A stretch of DNA of 10,759 nucleotides, taken from positions 1 to 10,759 of the forward strand of contig CAMNFW010000056.1 of the NCBI GenBank assembly GCA_946537565.1, written 5' to 3'. The position numbers and the translations under genes were made by a program. Positions 2-5,881 of this stretch are shown in pieces (the stretch's first letter is position 1; the number at the start of each line of letters is the position of its first letter). The notes beneath the pieces were generated by a model. The model was not told the origin of the DNA, searched no databases, and saw nothing but the letters and a program-made list of their open reading frames with translations. Origin of the DNA: an uncultured Ruminococcus sp. (GTDB taxonomy: Bacteria; Bacillota; Clostridia; Oscillospirales; Ruminococcaceae).

Positions 2-334
2 ACACCTGTTTACGGCGGCGGAGAGGTGCGCTTGCTGGGAAACGGCAGCTTTGAGCTGATAAATGAGGATTTCACAGCTGAGTACAGCGATGATGTACTT
101 GTGATAAGGCAGGGAGATTCAGAGGTCACAATTTCTGCTGCAAATTCCGGGAAAGGCTCTGACAGCGGACTTTCTGTATATTATGGAAATATCAATTCCG
201 GAAATATTCCTGACCGAAGCGGAAATGCAGTATACCTTGACGAAGATGAAAACACCGGAGAAAGCATATCCGGTATAAATGATTTTGAGATAACCTTCAC
301 TGACAGCAGCAGATTCAAGATAAGGAGGCTGTAA
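2..334 (+). CDS. C-terminal fragment of an upstream gene, possibly the ComEC tail
   Basis: The frame is open from the left edge (first full codon at base 2), so this is the last 110 residues of a longer protein; the GTG at base 26 is probably an internal Val. The visible part has no membrane segment. It is a beta-rich, acidic stretch (AEYSDDVLVIRQGDSEVTI, then VYYGNI, AVYLDEDENTG, FEITFTDSSRFKIRRL). No catalytic motif can be seen. In many Firmicutes comEC, encoding the DNA-uptake channel with a C-terminal metallo-beta-lactamase-like domain, lies directly before holA. The repeated short beta strands ending in a basic IRRL tail would fit the end of that domain. This identity is inferred from synteny and general style only. 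The stop codon overlaps the holA start (TAATG), so the two are translationally coupled. It could also be an unrelated extracytoplasmic protein. Confidence 0.8.
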   Translation, partial: TPVYGGGEVRLLGNGSFELINEDFTAEYSDDVLVIRQGDSEVTISAANSGKGSDSGLSVYYGNINSGNIPDRSGNAVYLDEDENTGESISGINDFEITFTDSSRFKIRRL

Positions 335-1431
335 TGCCAAGAGCTGATGTGAAAAATGTGCTTTCTCAGCTGAAAAAGGGCGAGCTGAGAAATATATATT
401 ATATATGCGGAAGCGATATAAACGGAGTAGAAAGCCTTACGAAAAAGATCATAAAAGCAGTAGCCGGTGATAATGATGAGCTGGCTGTTACAAAGCTTGA
501 CGGCAAGTATATTGATCCTTCGGAGCTTTATGATCAGATGCAGATAGTCCCGATGATGTCGGAGTATAATTGTATATTCATCAATGACTATGACTGTGAA
601 AGACCTTACTACGAAATGAACGGAAAAAAAGCCGATGATATCAACAAGAGGCTGTTTGAAACATTGAAGAATATCCCTGAGCAGACAGTGATAATATTCA
701 ATGTCACCGGCTTTGAGATACCTGTAAAGTTCAGCCGGAAGATAAGAGATGTTGAGATAGACACAAAAAACAAAAACCGTAAGCTGGCAGATATTGCAGA
801 AAAAAACGGTATACTCTGCATTGTTGAAAAGCAGGCGCCGGCTGTTCTGGCAAAGACAATTGCGGCAAAGGTCTCAGCAAGAGGCGGAATGATCTCAGTG
901 AGAAATGCACAGCTGGTGGCAGAGATCTGCACCTCTGATGAAATAGCGATCGGCAATGAGATCGACAAGCTCTGTGCATATGCCGGAGGCAGAGAGATAA
1001 CTGAAACAATGATACGGGATATGGTGCATTATTCCAGTGTGAACTTCACAGTTTACAACCTTGCAGATGCAATTGCTGAGGGAAGCAGGGACAATGCGCT
1101 GAACATTCTCAGTGACCTGGATCTCAGTGATGACAAAAAATGCCGCAGCGCACTCAGTGCAATTCAGTCAACGTTCATGGATTATTATCGTGTAGTGACT
1201 GCAAAAAGAGCAGGTGTTGGAGCTGAGCAGGTAATAAATGATTTTGGCTATTACAGCCGAAGGTTCATTATAGAAAAGCTTTACAATAAAAGCATCCGTC
1301 TTAGTCTGAAAAAGATAAGGAGCTGTCTGGATATACTCTGTGACACAAATGAAAGGCTCAATTCAACAGCAGCTGATATCCGTTCTGAGATAGAAACGGC
1401 TGTGATAAAAATGCTGACTGCACCGAATTGA
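334..1431 (+). CDS. holA: DNA polymerase III subunit delta
   Basis: Delta subunit of the clamp loader, which opens the sliding clamp and loads it on primed DNA; cytoplasmic. The protein has 365 residues, slightly longer than the usual 330-345. The N-terminal AAA+-like domain (about residues 10-150) begins with LKKGELRNIYYICGSD, the typical 'YxxxG' entry of this family, with no functional Walker A, as is normal for delta. The C-terminal part (about 225-340) holds the collar helices, with VYNLADAIAEGSRDNALNILSDL matching the family pattern of a 'f.l.dai..g....a...l..l' helix pair. The start ATG overlaps the preceding stop by one base, and AAGGAGG at 322-328 sits at good distance. The next gene, rnmV, follows after 25 bases. 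The assignment is secure by motif pattern and place. Confidence 0.9.
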   Translation: MPRADVKNVLSQLKKGELRNIYYICGSDINGVESLTKKIIKAVAGDNDELAVTKLDGKYIDPSELYDQMQIVPMMSEYNCIFINDYDCERPYYEMNGKKADDINKRLFETLKNIPEQTVIIFNVTGFEIPVKFSRKIRDVEIDTKNKNRKLADIAEKNGILCIVEKQAPAVLAKTIAAKVSARGGMISVRNAQLVAEICTSDEIAIGNEIDKLCAYAGGREITETMIRDMVHYSSVNFTVYNLADAIAEGSRDNALNILSDLDLSDDKKCRSALSAIQSTFMDYYRVVTAKRAGVGAEQVINDFGYYSRRFIIEKLYNKSIRLSLKKIRSCLDILCDTNERLNSTAADIRSEIETAVIKMLTAPN

Positions 1432-1456: not shown

Positions 1457-2056
1457 ATGATCAGATTAAAAGAGGCAGTGATCGTAGAGGGAAAGTATGA
1501 CAAGATCAGGCTTTCGTCACTGATAGATGCGGTCATGATCGTGACCAACGGCTTCGGGATATTCAAGGACAGGGAAAAGCTGGAGCTTATAAGATATTAC
1601 GCAGAAAAAACCGGCATAATCATACTCACGGACTCTGACAGTGCTGGCAGAAAAATACGCAGCTATATCCGCAGTGCTGTCAGCAGCGGAAAGATAATAA
1701 ATGTATATATACCGGATATTTTCGGAAAGGAAAGGCGCAAGGACAAGCCTTCATCCGAGGGAAAGCTTGGGGTCGAGGGAATAAGCACAGATTATCTTAT
1801 AGAAGCCTTCAGAAAATCCGGAGTTACAGCGGATGAAAGAAAGACAGCTCCTGATATCACAAAGCTGACCATGTTTGAGCTGGGACTCAGCGGAGGAAAA
1901 AACAGCAGTGAGCTGCGTCAGCGTCTTCAGAAGCGGCTTGGACTGCCTTCACTGCTTTCAGCCGGATCACTTTTAGAGGTGCTGAACACAATGATGAACG
2001 CAGAGGAGCTGGCAGAGCATACTGCTGCAATTAAGGAGGAGACAGATGATATATAG
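1457..2056 (+). CDS. rnmV: Ribonuclease M5-like TOPRIM protein (5S rRNA maturation)
   Basis: Ribonuclease M5 cuts both sides of the 5S rRNA precursor in Gram-positive bacteria. The protein has 199 residues, close to the family size. The TOPRIM domain covers about residues 4-100: the Glu of VEGKYD (E11) and the DxD in TDSDSAG (D59, D61) are the metal-binding acidic residues. TNGFGIF (30-36) and GKLGVEG (about 102-108) match the M5 pattern. Residues about 130-185 (ITKLTMFELGLSGGKNSSELRQ and LGLPSLLSAGSLLEVLN) match the DUF4093-type C-terminal region seen in Clostridia. The start follows GAGG at 1446-1449. The 3' end overlaps the next gene by 11 bases, which suggests coupled translation. It is found here beside holA rather than beside ksgA, its common neighbour elsewhere. 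No key residue is missing. Confidence 0.88.
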   Translation: MIRLKEAVIVEGKYDKIRLSSLIDAVMIVTNGFGIFKDREKLELIRYYAEKTGIIILTDSDSAGRKIRSYIRSAVSSGKIINVYIPDIFGKERRKDKPSSEGKLGVEGISTDYLIEAFRKSGVTADERKTAPDITKLTMFELGLSGGKNSSELRQRLQKRLGLPSLLSAGSLLEVLNTMMNAEELAEHTAAIKEETDDI

Positions 2057-3422
2057 CAGTCTGCTGTTTATATACGGCTTTTTTCCGTTATCGCTGCTGA
2101 TATATTTTTTACTGCCAAAGGGTATGCAGCGAACGGGACTGCTGTTAATGAGCATGGTATTCTGCGGAGCTTTTGGGACAAAGTATCTGCTTACATTTTT
2201 TGGCTGCACAGTGATAAACTATACTCTTGGAAGAATAATGGGGCAGATGCGGAAGAATGGCAGCCGTTTCACCTGGATACCGCTGGTAGCAGGACTGTCA
2301 GCGGATATGCTGATGTTATTTGTATTCAGGGCGAGGCTGCCGGGAATATTGAAGCCCTCGTTTGCGGAGAGCAGTTTTCCGCTGGGAGTATCGTTTCTCA
2401 GCCTGTCAGTGATGGGATATCTGATGGACGTATATCGGGGAAAATGCAATGCCGAGCGGAATATAGTAAGCTTTTGTCTTTACACAATGTATTTTCCGAG
2501 ACTGATAATGGGACCTCTGCTGAGGTATGATATTTTCAGGAAGGCAGTACGCAGCCGGGATCCCAGTCTTGAGGAGATAGGTGTAGGAATGTCACTGTTT
2601 GTGAAGGGACTGGCAAAGAAAGTTCTTGCAGCGGACAATCTGTTTATGATGTACAATGCGGTAAGGAGCGTAGAGATCAGCAAACTATCTGCACTTTCAG
2701 CCTGGCTGGGAGCGCTAGCGTATGTACTTTGCCTTTACTTTACACTTTCCGGCTTTGCTGATATGGGAACTGGCATCAGCTACTGTTTTGGAATAAAGCT
2801 TGTGCAGAGCTTCAACTACCCGATGCTGAGCAGCAGAATAAAATTTTTTGCATCAAAATGGCATATGCAGCTGATATGCTGGTTCAGGAGATATATCAGC
2901 CGTCCGCTGAAAACTTTGACGGAGAAGCCCTGGCTGAGAGATCTGATATTTGTATTCTCATGGTGCATGGCAGGTTTCTGGTATAAATTTGATCTTGGCG
3001 GTCTGATATGGGGAGCGATGATCGGCGGAGCGATGCTTCTGGAGTCAAAGATAATAAAGAAGAAGATATTAAAAGCCACAGGAATGATATATACTTTCCT
3101 GCTTGTGCAGATCTTCGGAGTATTTCTTGCCGGAGACAGTGCAGCAGGGTCGCTGCATTATATCATTGTAATGTTTGGCGGAACCCGTCAGCTGGCGGAC
3201 TCATTTACGATATATCTGCTCAGATCATATCTGGTAATACTGCTGGTATCGGTATATGCCTCAACAGATCTTTTCAGGAACATGATGATGAGGACTGGCG
3301 GAGCAGTGATCAGGAAGGTAATAACAGCTGCAACCCCGTTTATAGTGACAGCAGTTCTGCTGATATGTACAGTATTCATGTCATACAGCGGCAGCTCTGA
3401 GATGATACTCATGCAGTTATAG
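2046..3422 (+). CDS. MBOAT-family (AlgI/DltB-like) membrane protein lacking the second conserved His
   Basis: MBOAT proteins of this group carry an acyl (usually acetyl) group across the membrane for O-acylation of cell-surface polymers. The protein has 458 residues with about ten hydrophobic segments from residue 3 to the end, the usual size. Family landmarks in order: GVSFLSLSVMGYLMDVYRG, PRLIMGPLLRYDIF, GLAKKVLAADNL, SGFADMGTGISYCFG, FNYPMLSS, then KWHMQLICWFRRYISRPL, which keeps the first conserved His (H273). The second motif, normally GLWHG with the His regarded as catalytic, reads AGFWYKFD: the residue is Tyr313 (TAT at 2982-2984), one base from a His codon. The FW-RR before H273 is also changed (FFASKWH). 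The start has AAGGAGG at 2033-2039 and lies inside rnmV. The DHHW partner follows after 10 bases. Family is clear; activity is doubtful. It could be a pseudoenzyme, or use different chemistry. Confidence 0.88.
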   Translation: MIYSSLLFIYGFFPLSLLIYFLLPKGMQRTGLLLMSMVFCGAFGTKYLLTFFGCTVINYTLGRIMGQMRKNGSRFTWIPLVAGLSADMLMLFVFRARLPGILKPSFAESSFPLGVSFLSLSVMGYLMDVYRGKCNAERNIVSFCLYTMYFPRLIMGPLLRYDIFRKAVRSRDPSLEEIGVGMSLFVKGLAKKVLAADNLFMMYNAVRSVEISKLSALSAWLGALAYVLCLYFTLSGFADMGTGISYCFGIKLVQSFNYPMLSSRIKFFASKWHMQLICWFRRYISRPLKTLTEKPWLRDLIFVFSWCMAGFWYKFDLGGLIWGAMIGGAMLLESKIIKKKILKATGMIYTFLLVQIFGVFLAGDSAAGSLHYIIVMFGGTRQLADSFTIYLLRSYLVILLVSVYASTDLFRNMMMRTGGAVIRKVITAATPFIVTAVLLICTVFMSYSGSSEMILMQL

Positions 3423-3432
3423 GAGGCGGTAT

Positions 3433-4563
3433 ATGAAAAAGAAGACAAATGCTCTGACGGCAGTTTTTTCACTTACAGTCATGTTTGTATTTCTTCTGAC
3501 AACGATATTTATGCCAAAGAAAAAGACCTCTGAAAATGAGAACAGACCTCTGGCGGAGCTGCCTGAGTTAAGTTCAGATAATTTATCGGAGGGAGAATAT
3601 ACTCATGGTTTAAGCCGGTATTTTACTGATCATTTTGCAGGCAGGGACGTTTGGATATCAGCGCAGGCGCTGGCAGAGCAGCAGATATGTGAGAGTATAG
3701 TGAACGGAGTATACATTTCTGACAGCCGGCTGCTGGACGCAGGGGTTTCGCAGAGACAGGTATCAATGACGTATGCTGACTATATAAACCGTTATGCAGA
3801 GGAAAACTCCGGAGCTGTTTATATGGCGGCAATTCCTACATCAGTGGGAGTGTATGGTGATCTTCTTCCTGAGCATCTGCTGAGCAACTCTGAACGTGAC
3901 CAGATAAGTCGGTTTTATGACGGGCTTGCCGGAAGCATACGAAAGATAGATGCTTACAATATACTGAAAATGCTCAGTGATAATTATATTTATTACCGCA
4001 GTGATAATAAATGGACCAGTTATGGGGCATACTGTGTATACAGGACAGTTATCCAGAAGCTGGGATTCCAGCCTACGTCCTATGATAAATATACTATATC
4101 CCATATAACTGATGCATTTCGTGGTGAGCTTTACATCAAGTCGCAGTATATGAGATCAAAACCTGATATCATAGATGTTTACAGTTACCCGGAAGGAACG
4201 GAGATATTATCCTGTACAGGAACTGACAGCAGCGGAAATATACATGAGTGCAGCATCTATAACTCATCTGCACTGGAAACGCCGGATATGTACCGGTTTT
4301 ATATGGGATACGGATATCCGGAATACAATATAAAAACATCACTCAACAATGACCGCAGACTTCTTGTTATATGCGATGACACAGCGTATTGCTTTATACC
4401 TTTTTTAACCCAGCATTACAGTGAGATAGAGGTATTGTCACCGGAATATATGGAAGGCGGTATAGAAAGCTATACCGATACTGATGAGTATGAGCAGACG
4501 CTGTTCATTTTTGGTATAGACACTCTCTGCGAAAACGGAGAAGAGTTTAATTCGACTCCGTGA
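3433..4563 (+). CDS. DHHW/AlgX-like extracytoplasmic protein with a degenerate catalytic site
   Basis: Proteins of this type are anchored outside the membrane and work with an MBOAT protein to acetylate a surface polysaccharide, using a Ser-His-Asp site like that of AlgX/AlgJ. The protein has 376 residues, normal size. Basic MKKK is followed by one membrane segment (about 7-28), then the family N-terminal pattern ENRPLAELPEL (36-46), DHFAGRDVW (66-74) and NGVYIS (91-96). The naming motif, D-H-H-W-T, reads D191-N-K-W194-T: both His are lost. The later 'DSya..fipfL' motif reads C-D315-D316-TAYCFIPFL, so the expected Ser aligns without gaps with Asp316. The rest of the fold pattern (YGAY after the motif, then a 'hY.EIEVL' strand) is kept. 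RBS AGGAGG at 3421-3426 overlaps the stop of the MBOAT gene. Family membership is well supported; acetyltransferase function is not expected. Confidence 0.87.
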   Translation: MKKKTNALTAVFSLTVMFVFLLTTIFMPKKKTSENENRPLAELPELSSDNLSEGEYTHGLSRYFTDHFAGRDVWISAQALAEQQICESIVNGVYISDSRLLDAGVSQRQVSMTYADYINRYAEENSGAVYMAAIPTSVGVYGDLLPEHLLSNSERDQISRFYDGLAGSIRKIDAYNILKMLSDNYIYYRSDNKWTSYGAYCVYRTVIQKLGFQPTSYDKYTISHITDAFRGELYIKSQYMRSKPDIIDVYSYPEGTEILSCTGTDSSGNIHECSIYNSSALETPDMYRFYMGYGYPEYNIKTSLNNDRRLLVICDDTAYCFIPFLTQHYSEIEVLSPEYMEGGIESYTDTDEYEQTLFIFGIDTLCENGEEFNSTP

Positions 4564-4584
4564 TAAAGGAAACGAGGTAATGAT

Positions 4585-5337
4585 ATGAAAGCGCTAATAA
4601 CAGGAGCAACCTCCGGCATAGGAAAGAGCATGGCACGTCAGCTTGATAAGAGGGGCTGGTCGCTGATACTTACCGGACAGAATGAAAAAGTTCTTGAGGA
4701 GTTAAAGAACGAGCTTAAAGATGCAGAGGTGATCAAGGCTGATCTTTCTAAGAAAAGCGAAGTTTTCAGGGTATATGACTTTTGCCGGGACAAGGGAATA
4801 GATATGCTGGTAAACAATGCAGGATATGGACTTTACGGCAGATTTGAGGATATAGATATGGAGGACGAGCTTGGACTTATAAATGTCAATATAGTTGCAG
4901 TCCATATTCTTACGAAGCTGTTTCTCAGGGATTTCAAGAAGCATGATCACGGAATGATCCTCAATGTAGCGTCCAGTGCAGGTTTCATGACGGGACCGCT
5001 TATGGCATCATACTATGCTTCAAAGAATTATGTAGTTCGTTTATCAATGGCAATAGCAGAGGAGCTGAGACGTGACAAGTCAAAGGTCAGCATAACACTG
5101 CTCTGTCCGGGACCCGTGGACACAAACTTCAACAACAGGGCAGGGGTTTCGTTCAGTGTAAAGCCGATAACAGCTGACCAGGCAGCCGAATGTGCAATAA
5201 ACAGGGCAATAGCAGGAAAACTTCTGGCGATACCTGGATTTTATGTAAGGGCAGCGGTATGGGGCTCAAGATTTGTACCGCATAAGCTTCTTTCCGCAAT
5301 GGTATACAATATACAGCACAGCAAAAGCAGGAGCTGA
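4585..5337 (+). CDS. Short-chain dehydrogenase/reductase (classical SDR, COG0300-like)
   Basis: NAD(P)-dependent oxidoreductase of unknown substrate, 250 residues, the usual classical SDR size. The cofactor motif TGATSGIG is at residues 6-13, NNAG at 77-80 and the active site has S130 (NVASSAG), Y143 and K147 (YYASK). PGPVDT (175-180) is the usual segment after the catalytic helix. The pattern NVAS..GFMTGPLMASYYASK resembles the DltE/YqjQ-type subgroup. There is no signal peptide, so it is cytoplasmic. The ATG at 4585 follows GAGG at 4574-4577; an ATG at 4580 is out of frame. It lies 21 bases after the DHHW gene and 4 bases before the next gene, so it is co-transcribed. Whether it shares a pathway with the MBOAT-DHHW pair cannot be told. 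All catalytic residues are present. Confidence 0.92.
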   Translation: MKALITGATSGIGKSMARQLDKRGWSLILTGQNEKVLEELKNELKDAEVIKADLSKKSEVFRVYDFCRDKGIDMLVNNAGYGLYGRFEDIDMEDELGLINVNIVAVHILTKLFLRDFKKHDHGMILNVASSAGFMTGPLMASYYASKNYVVRLSMAIAEELRRDKSKVSITLLCPGPVDTNFNNRAGVSFSVKPITADQAAECAINRAIAGKLLAIPGFYVRAAVWGSRFVPHKLLSAMVYNIQHSKSRS

Positions 5338-5341
5338 TATA

Positions 5342-5881
5342 ATGAGGGACATAAGCTACAGAGTAGCACTTGGAGGCATTGTATCGGCATTGTGTCTGAT
5401 AACAATGTTTCTTGCAGGTATAATACCGGCGCTGTATTTGCTGCTTCCGATGGCAGCGGGGGTGCTGTTAATGGTGATAGCAGCGGAGGTCAGCATAGGC
5501 TGGGCAGCGCTGACATATCTTTCAGTGGGAATACTTTCGCTGTTTATCTGTGCAGACAAAGAAGCAGCACTGGTATTTATAATGCTGTTCGGACATTATC
5601 CGATAATACGATTTTATCTTGAGCGGATAAAAATAAAACCGCTCCGGGGAGCGGCAAAGCTTGTGGTGTTCAATCTGTGTGCGGCGTTATTTTTCTATGT
5701 AACGGTGTATATTTTCGGACTTGACCAGATGGTTGAAGAGATGAATGATATAGGGAAATACGGCGCACTGGTGATGCTTGGATTCTGCAATCTTATCTTC
5801 ATACTTTACGATTATAATCTTAAGGCAGCCTACAGCATATACATACGCAAGCTAATGCCTAAATTCAAGCGTAAAAAGTAA
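5342..5881 (+). CDS. Small polytopic membrane protein of unknown function
   Basis: The protein has 179 residues with about six hydrophobic segments (roughly 8-26, 28-49, 52-71, 74-90, 104-126, 140-158) and a basic tail (KFKRKK), which predicts a cytoplasmic C-terminus. The layout recalls the substrate-binding (S) components of ECF transporters, and similar uncharacterised proteins seem common in Clostridia, but no substrate motif can be named, and no T or A component lies in the window. The ATG at 5342 was chosen because GGAG lies 8-12 bases upstream. The same frame is open further upstream (from 5273), but that part lies within the SDR gene. It is the last gene of the long + strand operon and is followed by a terminator. 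Confidence 0.8.
   Translation: MRDISYRVALGGIVSALCLITMFLAGIIPALYLLLPMAAGVLLMVIAAEVSIGWAALTYLSVGILSLFICADKEAALVFIMLFGHYPIIRFYLERIKIKPLRGAAKLVVFNLCAALFFYVTVYIFGLDQMVEEMNDIGKYGALVMLGFCNLIFILYDYNLKAAYSIYIRKLMPKFKRKK

Follow-up and report, generated by a model that had tools for sequence, protein, structure and literature searches.

Pairs of MBOAT and SGNH proteins are known as acyl-transfer machines. In C. jejuni PatA, auto-acetylation needs both His315 and a C-terminal Tyr; replacement of His315 by Ala or of the Tyr by Phe is sufficient, each alone, to abolish labelling, and this Tyr, a part of the C-terminal FXYXXF motif, passes the acetyl group on to PatB (PMC12148441). In PatB1, the nucleophile is Ser337 and the oxyanion-hole Arg359 is held by Asp357 (PMC9487903); in AlgJ the matching triad, D-x-H together with a Ser, consists of D190, H192 and S288 (PMC4148444). 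The active residues of DltB have been named as Asn289 and His336 (PMC11035591), and HHATL is an MBOAT surviving without its His (PMC5831804). Here we describe adjoining MBOAT and DHHW genes in a 10,759-nucleotide stretch of DNA (the window) from an uncultured Ruminococcus sp. (GenBank assembly GCA_946537565.1, contig CAMNFW010000056.1). The window corresponds to contig C56 in a draft genome of 2.16 Mb that is split into 310 contigs. At this locus the MBOAT base, the shuttle, the SGNH His and the oxyanion Arg are gone throughout the genus. It is probable, judging from sequence, that the pair is a PatA/PatB-like complex which is dead as a catalyst and has been retained, anchored in the membrane, to bind or guide a polymer without acyl transfer. 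Acyl transfer by the pair seems very unlikely, because all relay stations checked are altered while the architecture and the selection remain.

Relay residues of the window proteins

The MBOAT protein belongs to its superfamily by profile (Pfam PF03062, 34.7 bits; cut-off 27) and by fold, and its match to the NCBIfam DltB equivalog TIGR04091 reaches 87.5 bits at a cut-off of 375. The invariant His of active MBOATs (DltB H336) aligns with Tyr313, so that the missing catalytic His, claimed in a previous sequence-only reading of this DNA, is confirmed. The second active-site residue is kept as His273. A His occupies this position in 34 of 53 MBOATs of the genus, and the 6bug chain in the alignment also carries His at DltB position 289, unlike the Asn289 named in PMC11035591. 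The C-terminal FxYxxF motif with its Tyr, characteristic of a PatAB-type shuttle, is absent, and the adjacency of the two genes typical of such systems is present. The shuttle loss is additional to the sequence-only reading, which had not mentioned the C-terminus.

The partner is a DHHW-family protein by profile (PF14286, 98.6 bits; cut-off 25) and has a PatB1-like fold. It possesses neither the Asp-His-Ser triad (D-x-H plus KDS) nor the oxyanion Arg of active O-acetyltransferases. Lys193 and Asp316 stand at the catalytic His and the nucleophile Ser, both of which had been noted as lost from this protein; of these two losses, only that of the His is constant genus-wide. The oxyanion Asp and Arg, whose replacement had been missed, correspond to Ser336 and Glu338, a mapping that rests on the family alignment and on an equal distance to the Ser; when HMMER aligns the two sequences pairwise, it leaves a gap at Arg359. 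His224, invariant in the genus, was considered as a relocated catalytic His and dropped, since it is not newly conserved relative to the 38 intact orthologs described below. The window gene is the sole DHHW gene found in its own draft genome. The positions of all these features are listed in Table 1.

The predicted folds of the single chains have high confidence and match DltB (MBOAT) and PatB1 (DHHW). Together with the gene order, the domain families, the retained His273 and database names that still read AlgI, they would suit an ordinary O-acetyltransferase with merely variant active sites. Such an enzyme is barely plausible here: several elements are missing at once, and in PatA the single substitutions cited above each abolished labelling (PMC12148441). 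Four His-less MBOATs (P0032, P0027, P0070 and P0093) are named 'alginate O-acetyltransferase complex protein AlgI' in public databases; this naming of the genus MBOATs is probably a misannotation.

Table 1. Features of the window; positions are counted from its first letter
Feature	Position	Strand	Basis
MBOAT-fold membrane protein, 458 amino acids (aa), without catalytic His and acyl-shuttle Tyr	2046..3422	+	open reading frame (ORF)
Tyr313, codon TAT, at MBOAT catalytic His site (DltB H336)	2982..2984	+	alignment to 6bug/8jem
His273, codon CAT, at second MBOAT active-site residue (DltB 289), kept	2862..2864	+	alignment
MILMQL, last six MBOAT residues, where intact MBOATs carry the FxYxxF acyl-shuttle motif	3402..3419	+	
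DHHW-family (PatB1/AlgX-like SGNH) protein, 376 aa, N-terminal helix, without catalytic His, Ser and oxyanion Arg	3433..4563	+	
DNKW (191-194) in place of the DHHW motif; Lys193 (4009-4011) at catalytic His site; Asp191 kept	4003..4014	+	alignment to B. cereus PatB1
Asp316, codon GAC, at nucleophile Ser (BcPatB1 Ser337)	4378..4380	+	alignment
Ser336-x-Glu338, where BcPatB1 has oxyanion-hole Asp357-x-Arg359	4438..4446	+	family alignment and equal spacing from nucleophile (+20, +22)
holA (DNA polymerase III delta), upstream syntenic gene	334..1431	+	TIGR01128 163 bits
rnmV (ribonuclease M5-like), upstream syntenic gene	1457..2056	+	TIGR00334 86.5 bits (below cut-off 110.65), DUF4093 68.9 bits, synteny
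SDR oxidoreductase, downstream in most genus loci	4585..5337	+	PF00106, synteny
179-aa ORF, downstream in most genus loci reaching so far; no Pfam/NCBIfam match	5342..5881	+	

Conservation, selection and intact relatives

An ortholog of the MBOAT gene was found in 53 of 60 Ruminococcus genomes, its own included; the seven genomes without it have a listed completeness of 64-88%, and the pair is present in 36 of 36 genomes listed as at least 90% complete. After two further genomes had been added, 55 MBOATs and 54 DHHWs of the genus were read, some of them incomplete (the DHHW gene of L055 lies beyond the contig end). The MBOAT catalytic His site holds Tyr in 54 and Phe in one (L040), and only 28 of 456 MBOAT columns, Tyr313 counted, are at least equally conserved. 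FxYxxF occurs in none of the 55 C-termini, among which that of L057 looks frame-shifted near the end and those of L041, L044, L055 and L056 are unusual. The DHHW catalytic His site is occupied by Lys (50) or Arg (4), and Asp191 is kept in 54/54. The oxyanion Arg was found in 0/54, with Glu (41), Asp (6), Ser (5) or Lys (2) in its place, and a basic residue at 193 is combined with an acidic one at 338 in 47 of the 54 loci. The nucleophile Ser is kept in 36 DHHWs and lost in 18, sporadically, unlike both catalytic His residues.

The same picture is given by database relatives, which are in part identical genes. The best 120 of the 259 matches found with one protein and of the 439 found with the other were listed, and 119 each were read, excluding the query. 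Among these, Tyr stands at the MBOAT His site in 119/119 and a C-terminal Tyr in 0/119; the DHHWs have Lys or Arg at the His site in 119/119, Ser in 74/119 and Arg338 in 0/119. All organism-named relatives belong to Ruminococcus, with the exception of one Alistipes metagenome-assembled genome. Random decay or sequencing error was rejected, because the losses extend across the 55 MBOATs and 54 DHHWs of the genus, recur in all 119 listed relatives and leave the frames open.

The ratio of nonsynonymous to synonymous substitution rates (dN/dS) ranges within 0.079-0.192 for MBOAT and 0.098-0.186 for DHHW, and the medians of 0.12-0.13 are similar to those of catalytically intact pairs, the comparison that the sequence-only reading had proposed. 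Its argument that intact frames speak against random decay was borne out: simple decay is unlikely, given the predicted intact folds, a dN/dS of about 0.12 and the presence of the pair in each of the 36 near-complete genomes. A non-functional relic, retained for now by its position inside a housekeeping operon, is accordingly very improbable. The pair does change more rapidly than rnmV and holA, 56 once-invariant positions of MBOAT are lost and the L057 MBOAT looks frame-shifted, all of which would fit a relic. However, purifying selection and open frames hold across species about 50% identical, the replacement residue is itself conserved, and no pair was found after rnmV in L157 and L163-L165, loci of other genera, which shows that location does not force retention.

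The losses are concentrated on the relay, with a mean retention of 0.01 at MBOAT positions 449-458. In DHHW only seven invariant positions are lost, including both His residues of the motif, Asp336 and Arg338. Thirteen MBOAT positions (including S36, C40, R95, D197 and S451) and six DHHW positions (including R170 and D218) are newly conserved in the genus. These positions, the retained fold and the strong conservation of Tyr313 (54/55) and of a basic residue at 193 (54/54) could also point to new chemistry, in which Tyr313 and Lys193 would be new catalytic residues acting on a different group or by a different mechanism. We regard this as improbable: Phe, which cannot be a nucleophile or a base, replaces Tyr in L040, g142 and two of four g68 loci, the SGNH Ser is not conserved (36/54), and the shuttle motif and the oxyanion Arg are gone.

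Sixty loci from other genera were chosen among the higher-ranking DHHW matches, partly for odd-looking matches. They include 38 rnmV-linked loci with the MBOAT His, six rnmV-linked loci with this His lost, three dead-motif DHHWs for which no MBOAT was found and 13 loci not rnmV-linked in the stretch examined. The 38 rnmV-linked intact orthologs are complete at all stations checked (MBOAT His, FxYxxF, and DHHW His, Ser and Arg). A further 24 His-bearing MBOATs at other loci all carry FxYxxF, and their DHHW neighbours have His, Ser and Arg in 15 of 15 cases.

Paralogous MBOATs inside Ruminococcus are intact as well. GxWH and FxYxxF are present in 20 of 20 copies from 20 other genomes, picked from the listed matches and not randomly, and in the copy of the window's own genome (21/21). 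This last copy (on contig C270) adjoins a Lipase_GDSL_2 protein (SGNH-type, 56.1 bits) and represents the second intact pair for which a search had been suggested. The 20 paralogs are all adjoined by or close to an SGNH-type ORF with D-T/S-H-W and RDS. These partners (in L180-L199) are of two kinds, the DTHWRQ/RDSFG type (n = 6), in which the oxyanion Arg is kept in 6/6, and a longer D[TS]HWNN/RDS type (n = 14), for which the alignment at this Arg is ambiguous. By sequence, the L180-L199 pairs look like the working acetyltransferases of the genus. Since both these paralogs and the orthologs of other genera are intact, the loss is specific to the rnmV-linked pair.

The presence of intact paralogs with SGNH-type ORFs adjoining or nearby in 21/21 cases is relevant to the main alternative, a regulator or decoy. 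The dead pair would bind either the polymer that serves as substrate or the proteins that partner the intact paralogs, and would lower or position the activity of these paralogous pairs; HHATL, with its His replaced by Leu, negatively regulates the Hedgehog pathway (PMC5831804). We consider such a role possible but unlikely. The paralogs share just about 26-32% identity with the window MBOAT, and their SGNH partners are of other kinds, which makes mixed complexes less than obvious; the 20 copies are, besides, a non-random set.

In the locus itself, the sequence-only reading gave the coordinates, frames and 10-base spacing of MBOAT and DHHW correctly, and its ribosome-binding sites are seen as Shine-Dalgarno-like aaggagg (2033-2039) and aggagg (3421-3426). 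The gene order is holA, rnmV, MBOAT, DHHW, SDR and the 179-aa ORF, with the MBOAT start codon inside the 3' end of rnmV. The rnmV gene lies upstream in every genus locus whose contig extends that far, and MBOAT and DHHW adjoin in all genus loci where both were found. The SDR gene and the 179-aa ORF (4585-5881) were not found after DHHW in L044, L053 and L056. Two of these three branch deep in the genus, and for this reason the two genes may be later additions to the locus.

Dead pairs in other genera and their origins

DNA patterns for a D-x-R and a D-x-K DHHW motif matched in 8 and 5, respectively, of the same 396 family genomes. The D-x-K pattern matched Ruminococcus only; L149 (g60) nevertheless reads Lys. 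Pairs with the relay residues lost (dead pairs, named so for their residues) were read in g60 (6/6), g61 (7/7), g104 (five, with none at the sixth locus, L157) and g68 (three, plus one MBOAT without a linked DHHW), and as single loci in g63, g142 and g132; this sampling was aimed at particular genera, and the counts should not be taken as frequencies. Wherever the two genes of a dead pair stand together, the MBOAT His site is Tyr or Phe, the latter in g68 (2/4), g142 and L040. The recurring replacements are an aromatic residue at the MBOAT base and usually a basic one at the SGNH His, the oxyanion Arg being lost and the shuttle nearly always lost.

The sequence-only reading had proposed coordinated loss in both partners. 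On the holA+rnmV tree of 97 rows, joint states were readable in 85 rnmV-linked rows: both His residues are kept in 38, both are lost in 41, only the MBOAT His is lost in six and only the DHHW His in none. The proposal stands as a tendency and not as a strict rule. All six discordant rows belong to g61, which keeps the DHHW His in 6/7 and the oxyanion Arg in none; the g142 MBOAT keeps the shuttle Tyr (FLYLRL); and the reverse case is L170 (g82, not rnmV-linked in the stretch examined), the only pair in which the MBOAT His and FxYxxF are kept and the DHHW His and oxyanion Arg are lost. Independent losses, which would have told against coordination, do occur, but they are not mostly sporadic and are chiefly repeated joint losses.

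Several rnmV loci have other arrangements. Very diverged MBOATs without a linked DHHW stand behind rnmV at four g141 loci (L171, L172, L176 and L177), with Phe (two), Leu (one) or a gap (one) at the His site; three of the four have a Tyr four residues from the C-terminal end. A diverged MBOAT-like ORF without a linked DHHW also lies behind rnmV in L175 (g68). In sequence terms, the g141 loci and L175 look as if the partners had been separated. No MBOAT or DHHW was found at the rnmV loci L157, L160, L163, L164 and L165 of g104, g82 and g63 genomes.

The state changes on the holA+rnmV tree number at least five for MBOAT and at least six for DHHW. Independent contrasts for joint loss number only four (three or four in the same direction and none opposed), too few for a significance test. 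Forcing all dead loci into one clade made the neighbour-gene tree 292 log-likelihood units worse (p-AU, approximately unbiased test, 6.5e-46; 65 rows, after exclusion of most Ruminococcus rows and of 15 rows whose data were missing, short or long), which rejects a single origin. With the same neighbour genes, forcing Ruminococcus/g60/g61 and g104/g68 together was 55 units worse (p 3.4e-4), and a shared origin of these two groups is rejected on that evidence. In the DHHW tree computed with the motif columns removed, L129 (g63) groups with the intact L103 (98) and L166 (g142, long branch) with the intact L126/L127 (96), and g104/g68 are placed weakly beside Ruminococcus (79); all trees come from quick searches, with SH-aLRT as their sole measure of support. 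The horizontal spread of a single dead pair was rejected on the neighbour-gene and DHHW trees. At least three origins of the double loss are supported by both trees. Five origins are probable, with some uncertainty because g104/g68 sit with Ruminococcus in the DHHW tree, and the pair may have been transferred between these groups. On balance, bacteria of the Ruminococcus family seem to have repeatedly turned the whole MBOAT-SGNH relay into a complex at the membrane surface that is not catalytic and has taken on a shared new role, as a polymer conduit or anchor or as a regulator of paralogs.

Proposed role and comparison with known systems

Under the favoured reading of a dead complex that binds or guides a polymer, the ancestor would have been a working MBOAT/DHHW cell-envelope O-acetyltransferase of the PatA1/PatB1 kind, which many genera of the family carry directly after holA-rnmV. 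The common ancestor that Ruminococcus shares with two sister genera would have started to lose relay stations, namely the MBOAT base, where His became Tyr, the shuttle Tyr at the C-terminus and the oxyanion Arg. The SGNH catalytic His would have been exchanged for Lys or Arg in Ruminococcus and in one of the sister genera. The architecture of two proteins would have been retained, with the polytopic MBOAT fold, the SGNH domain with its N-terminal helix and the adjacent genes. The aromatic side chain may plug the former MBOAT tunnel, and the basic/acidic pair (193/338) may substitute for the His/Arg active site, giving a charge-swapped pocket fixed structurally. The pocket or surface of DHHW would then bind or guide an envelope polymer, and MBOAT would hold DHHW at the membrane.

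Several observations weigh against this reading. Median dN/dS is 0.12-0.13 for MBOAT and DHHW versus about 0.07 for rnmV and holA, which means faster evolution of the pair; the dS-limited comparison drew on a small number of species pairs, some of them overlapping. Once neighbour-gene distances are removed, MBOAT and DHHW distances show a weak partial correlation (r 0.17, p 0.05), and therefore pair-specific co-evolution is not demonstrated. The dead pair can apparently be lost, since L157 and L163-L165, where no pair was found, are close kin of dead-pair genomes. Orphan dead-motif DHHWs for which no MBOAT neighbour was found exist in L116 (3786-4895), L117 (2034-3134, minus strand) and L118 (within 3441-4670), with the motifs DDRW/GSDY, DTRW/TDEF and DPCW/TDAY, respectively; thus, the two partners need not always act jointly.

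Next to the orphans of L117 and L118 are a GNAT acetyltransferase (Pfam scores of 32.2 and 45.6 bits) and an ORF whose match to a PPIC-type rotamase is borderline (23.0 and 22.0 bits).

Fold, adjacency and purifying selection persist, which implies a useful role of the architecture that needs no acyl transfer. One may then ask whether complexes of this kind also serve to bind, thread or position polymers of the envelope. If the reading is true, separate lineages have reached the same re-use, and the repeated origin provides natural replicates.

No account of a dead MBOAT-SGNH pair was found in the openly licensed PubMed Central literature searched, judged by titles and the openings of abstracts, and the nearest precedent found is HHATL. 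PatA/PatB-type pairs, comprising the Gram-negative PatAB and B. cereus PatA1/PatB1 of the secondary cell wall polysaccharide, differ from the window pair, which is without the MBOAT His, FxYxxF, the SGNH His and the oxyanion Arg, the Ser being often lost too. In the alginate O-acetylation system AlgI/AlgJ/AlgX, both AlgJ and AlgX have the Asp-His-Ser triad, whereas the window DHHW does not. The DltB/DltX/DltD system of teichoic acid D-alanylation shares the MBOAT fold and the match to the DltB profile; the window protein, however, is far under the DltB cut-off, has no catalytic His and is accompanied by a DHHW protein and not by DltD. HHATL, an animal pseudo-MBOAT, is similar in having an MBOAT fold with the catalytic His replaced, by Leu in HHATL and by Tyr in the window. 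We know of no SGNH partner of HHATL. The bacterial case differs from it in that both members of a two-protein relay appear to be disabled, and in that this recurs in several genera.

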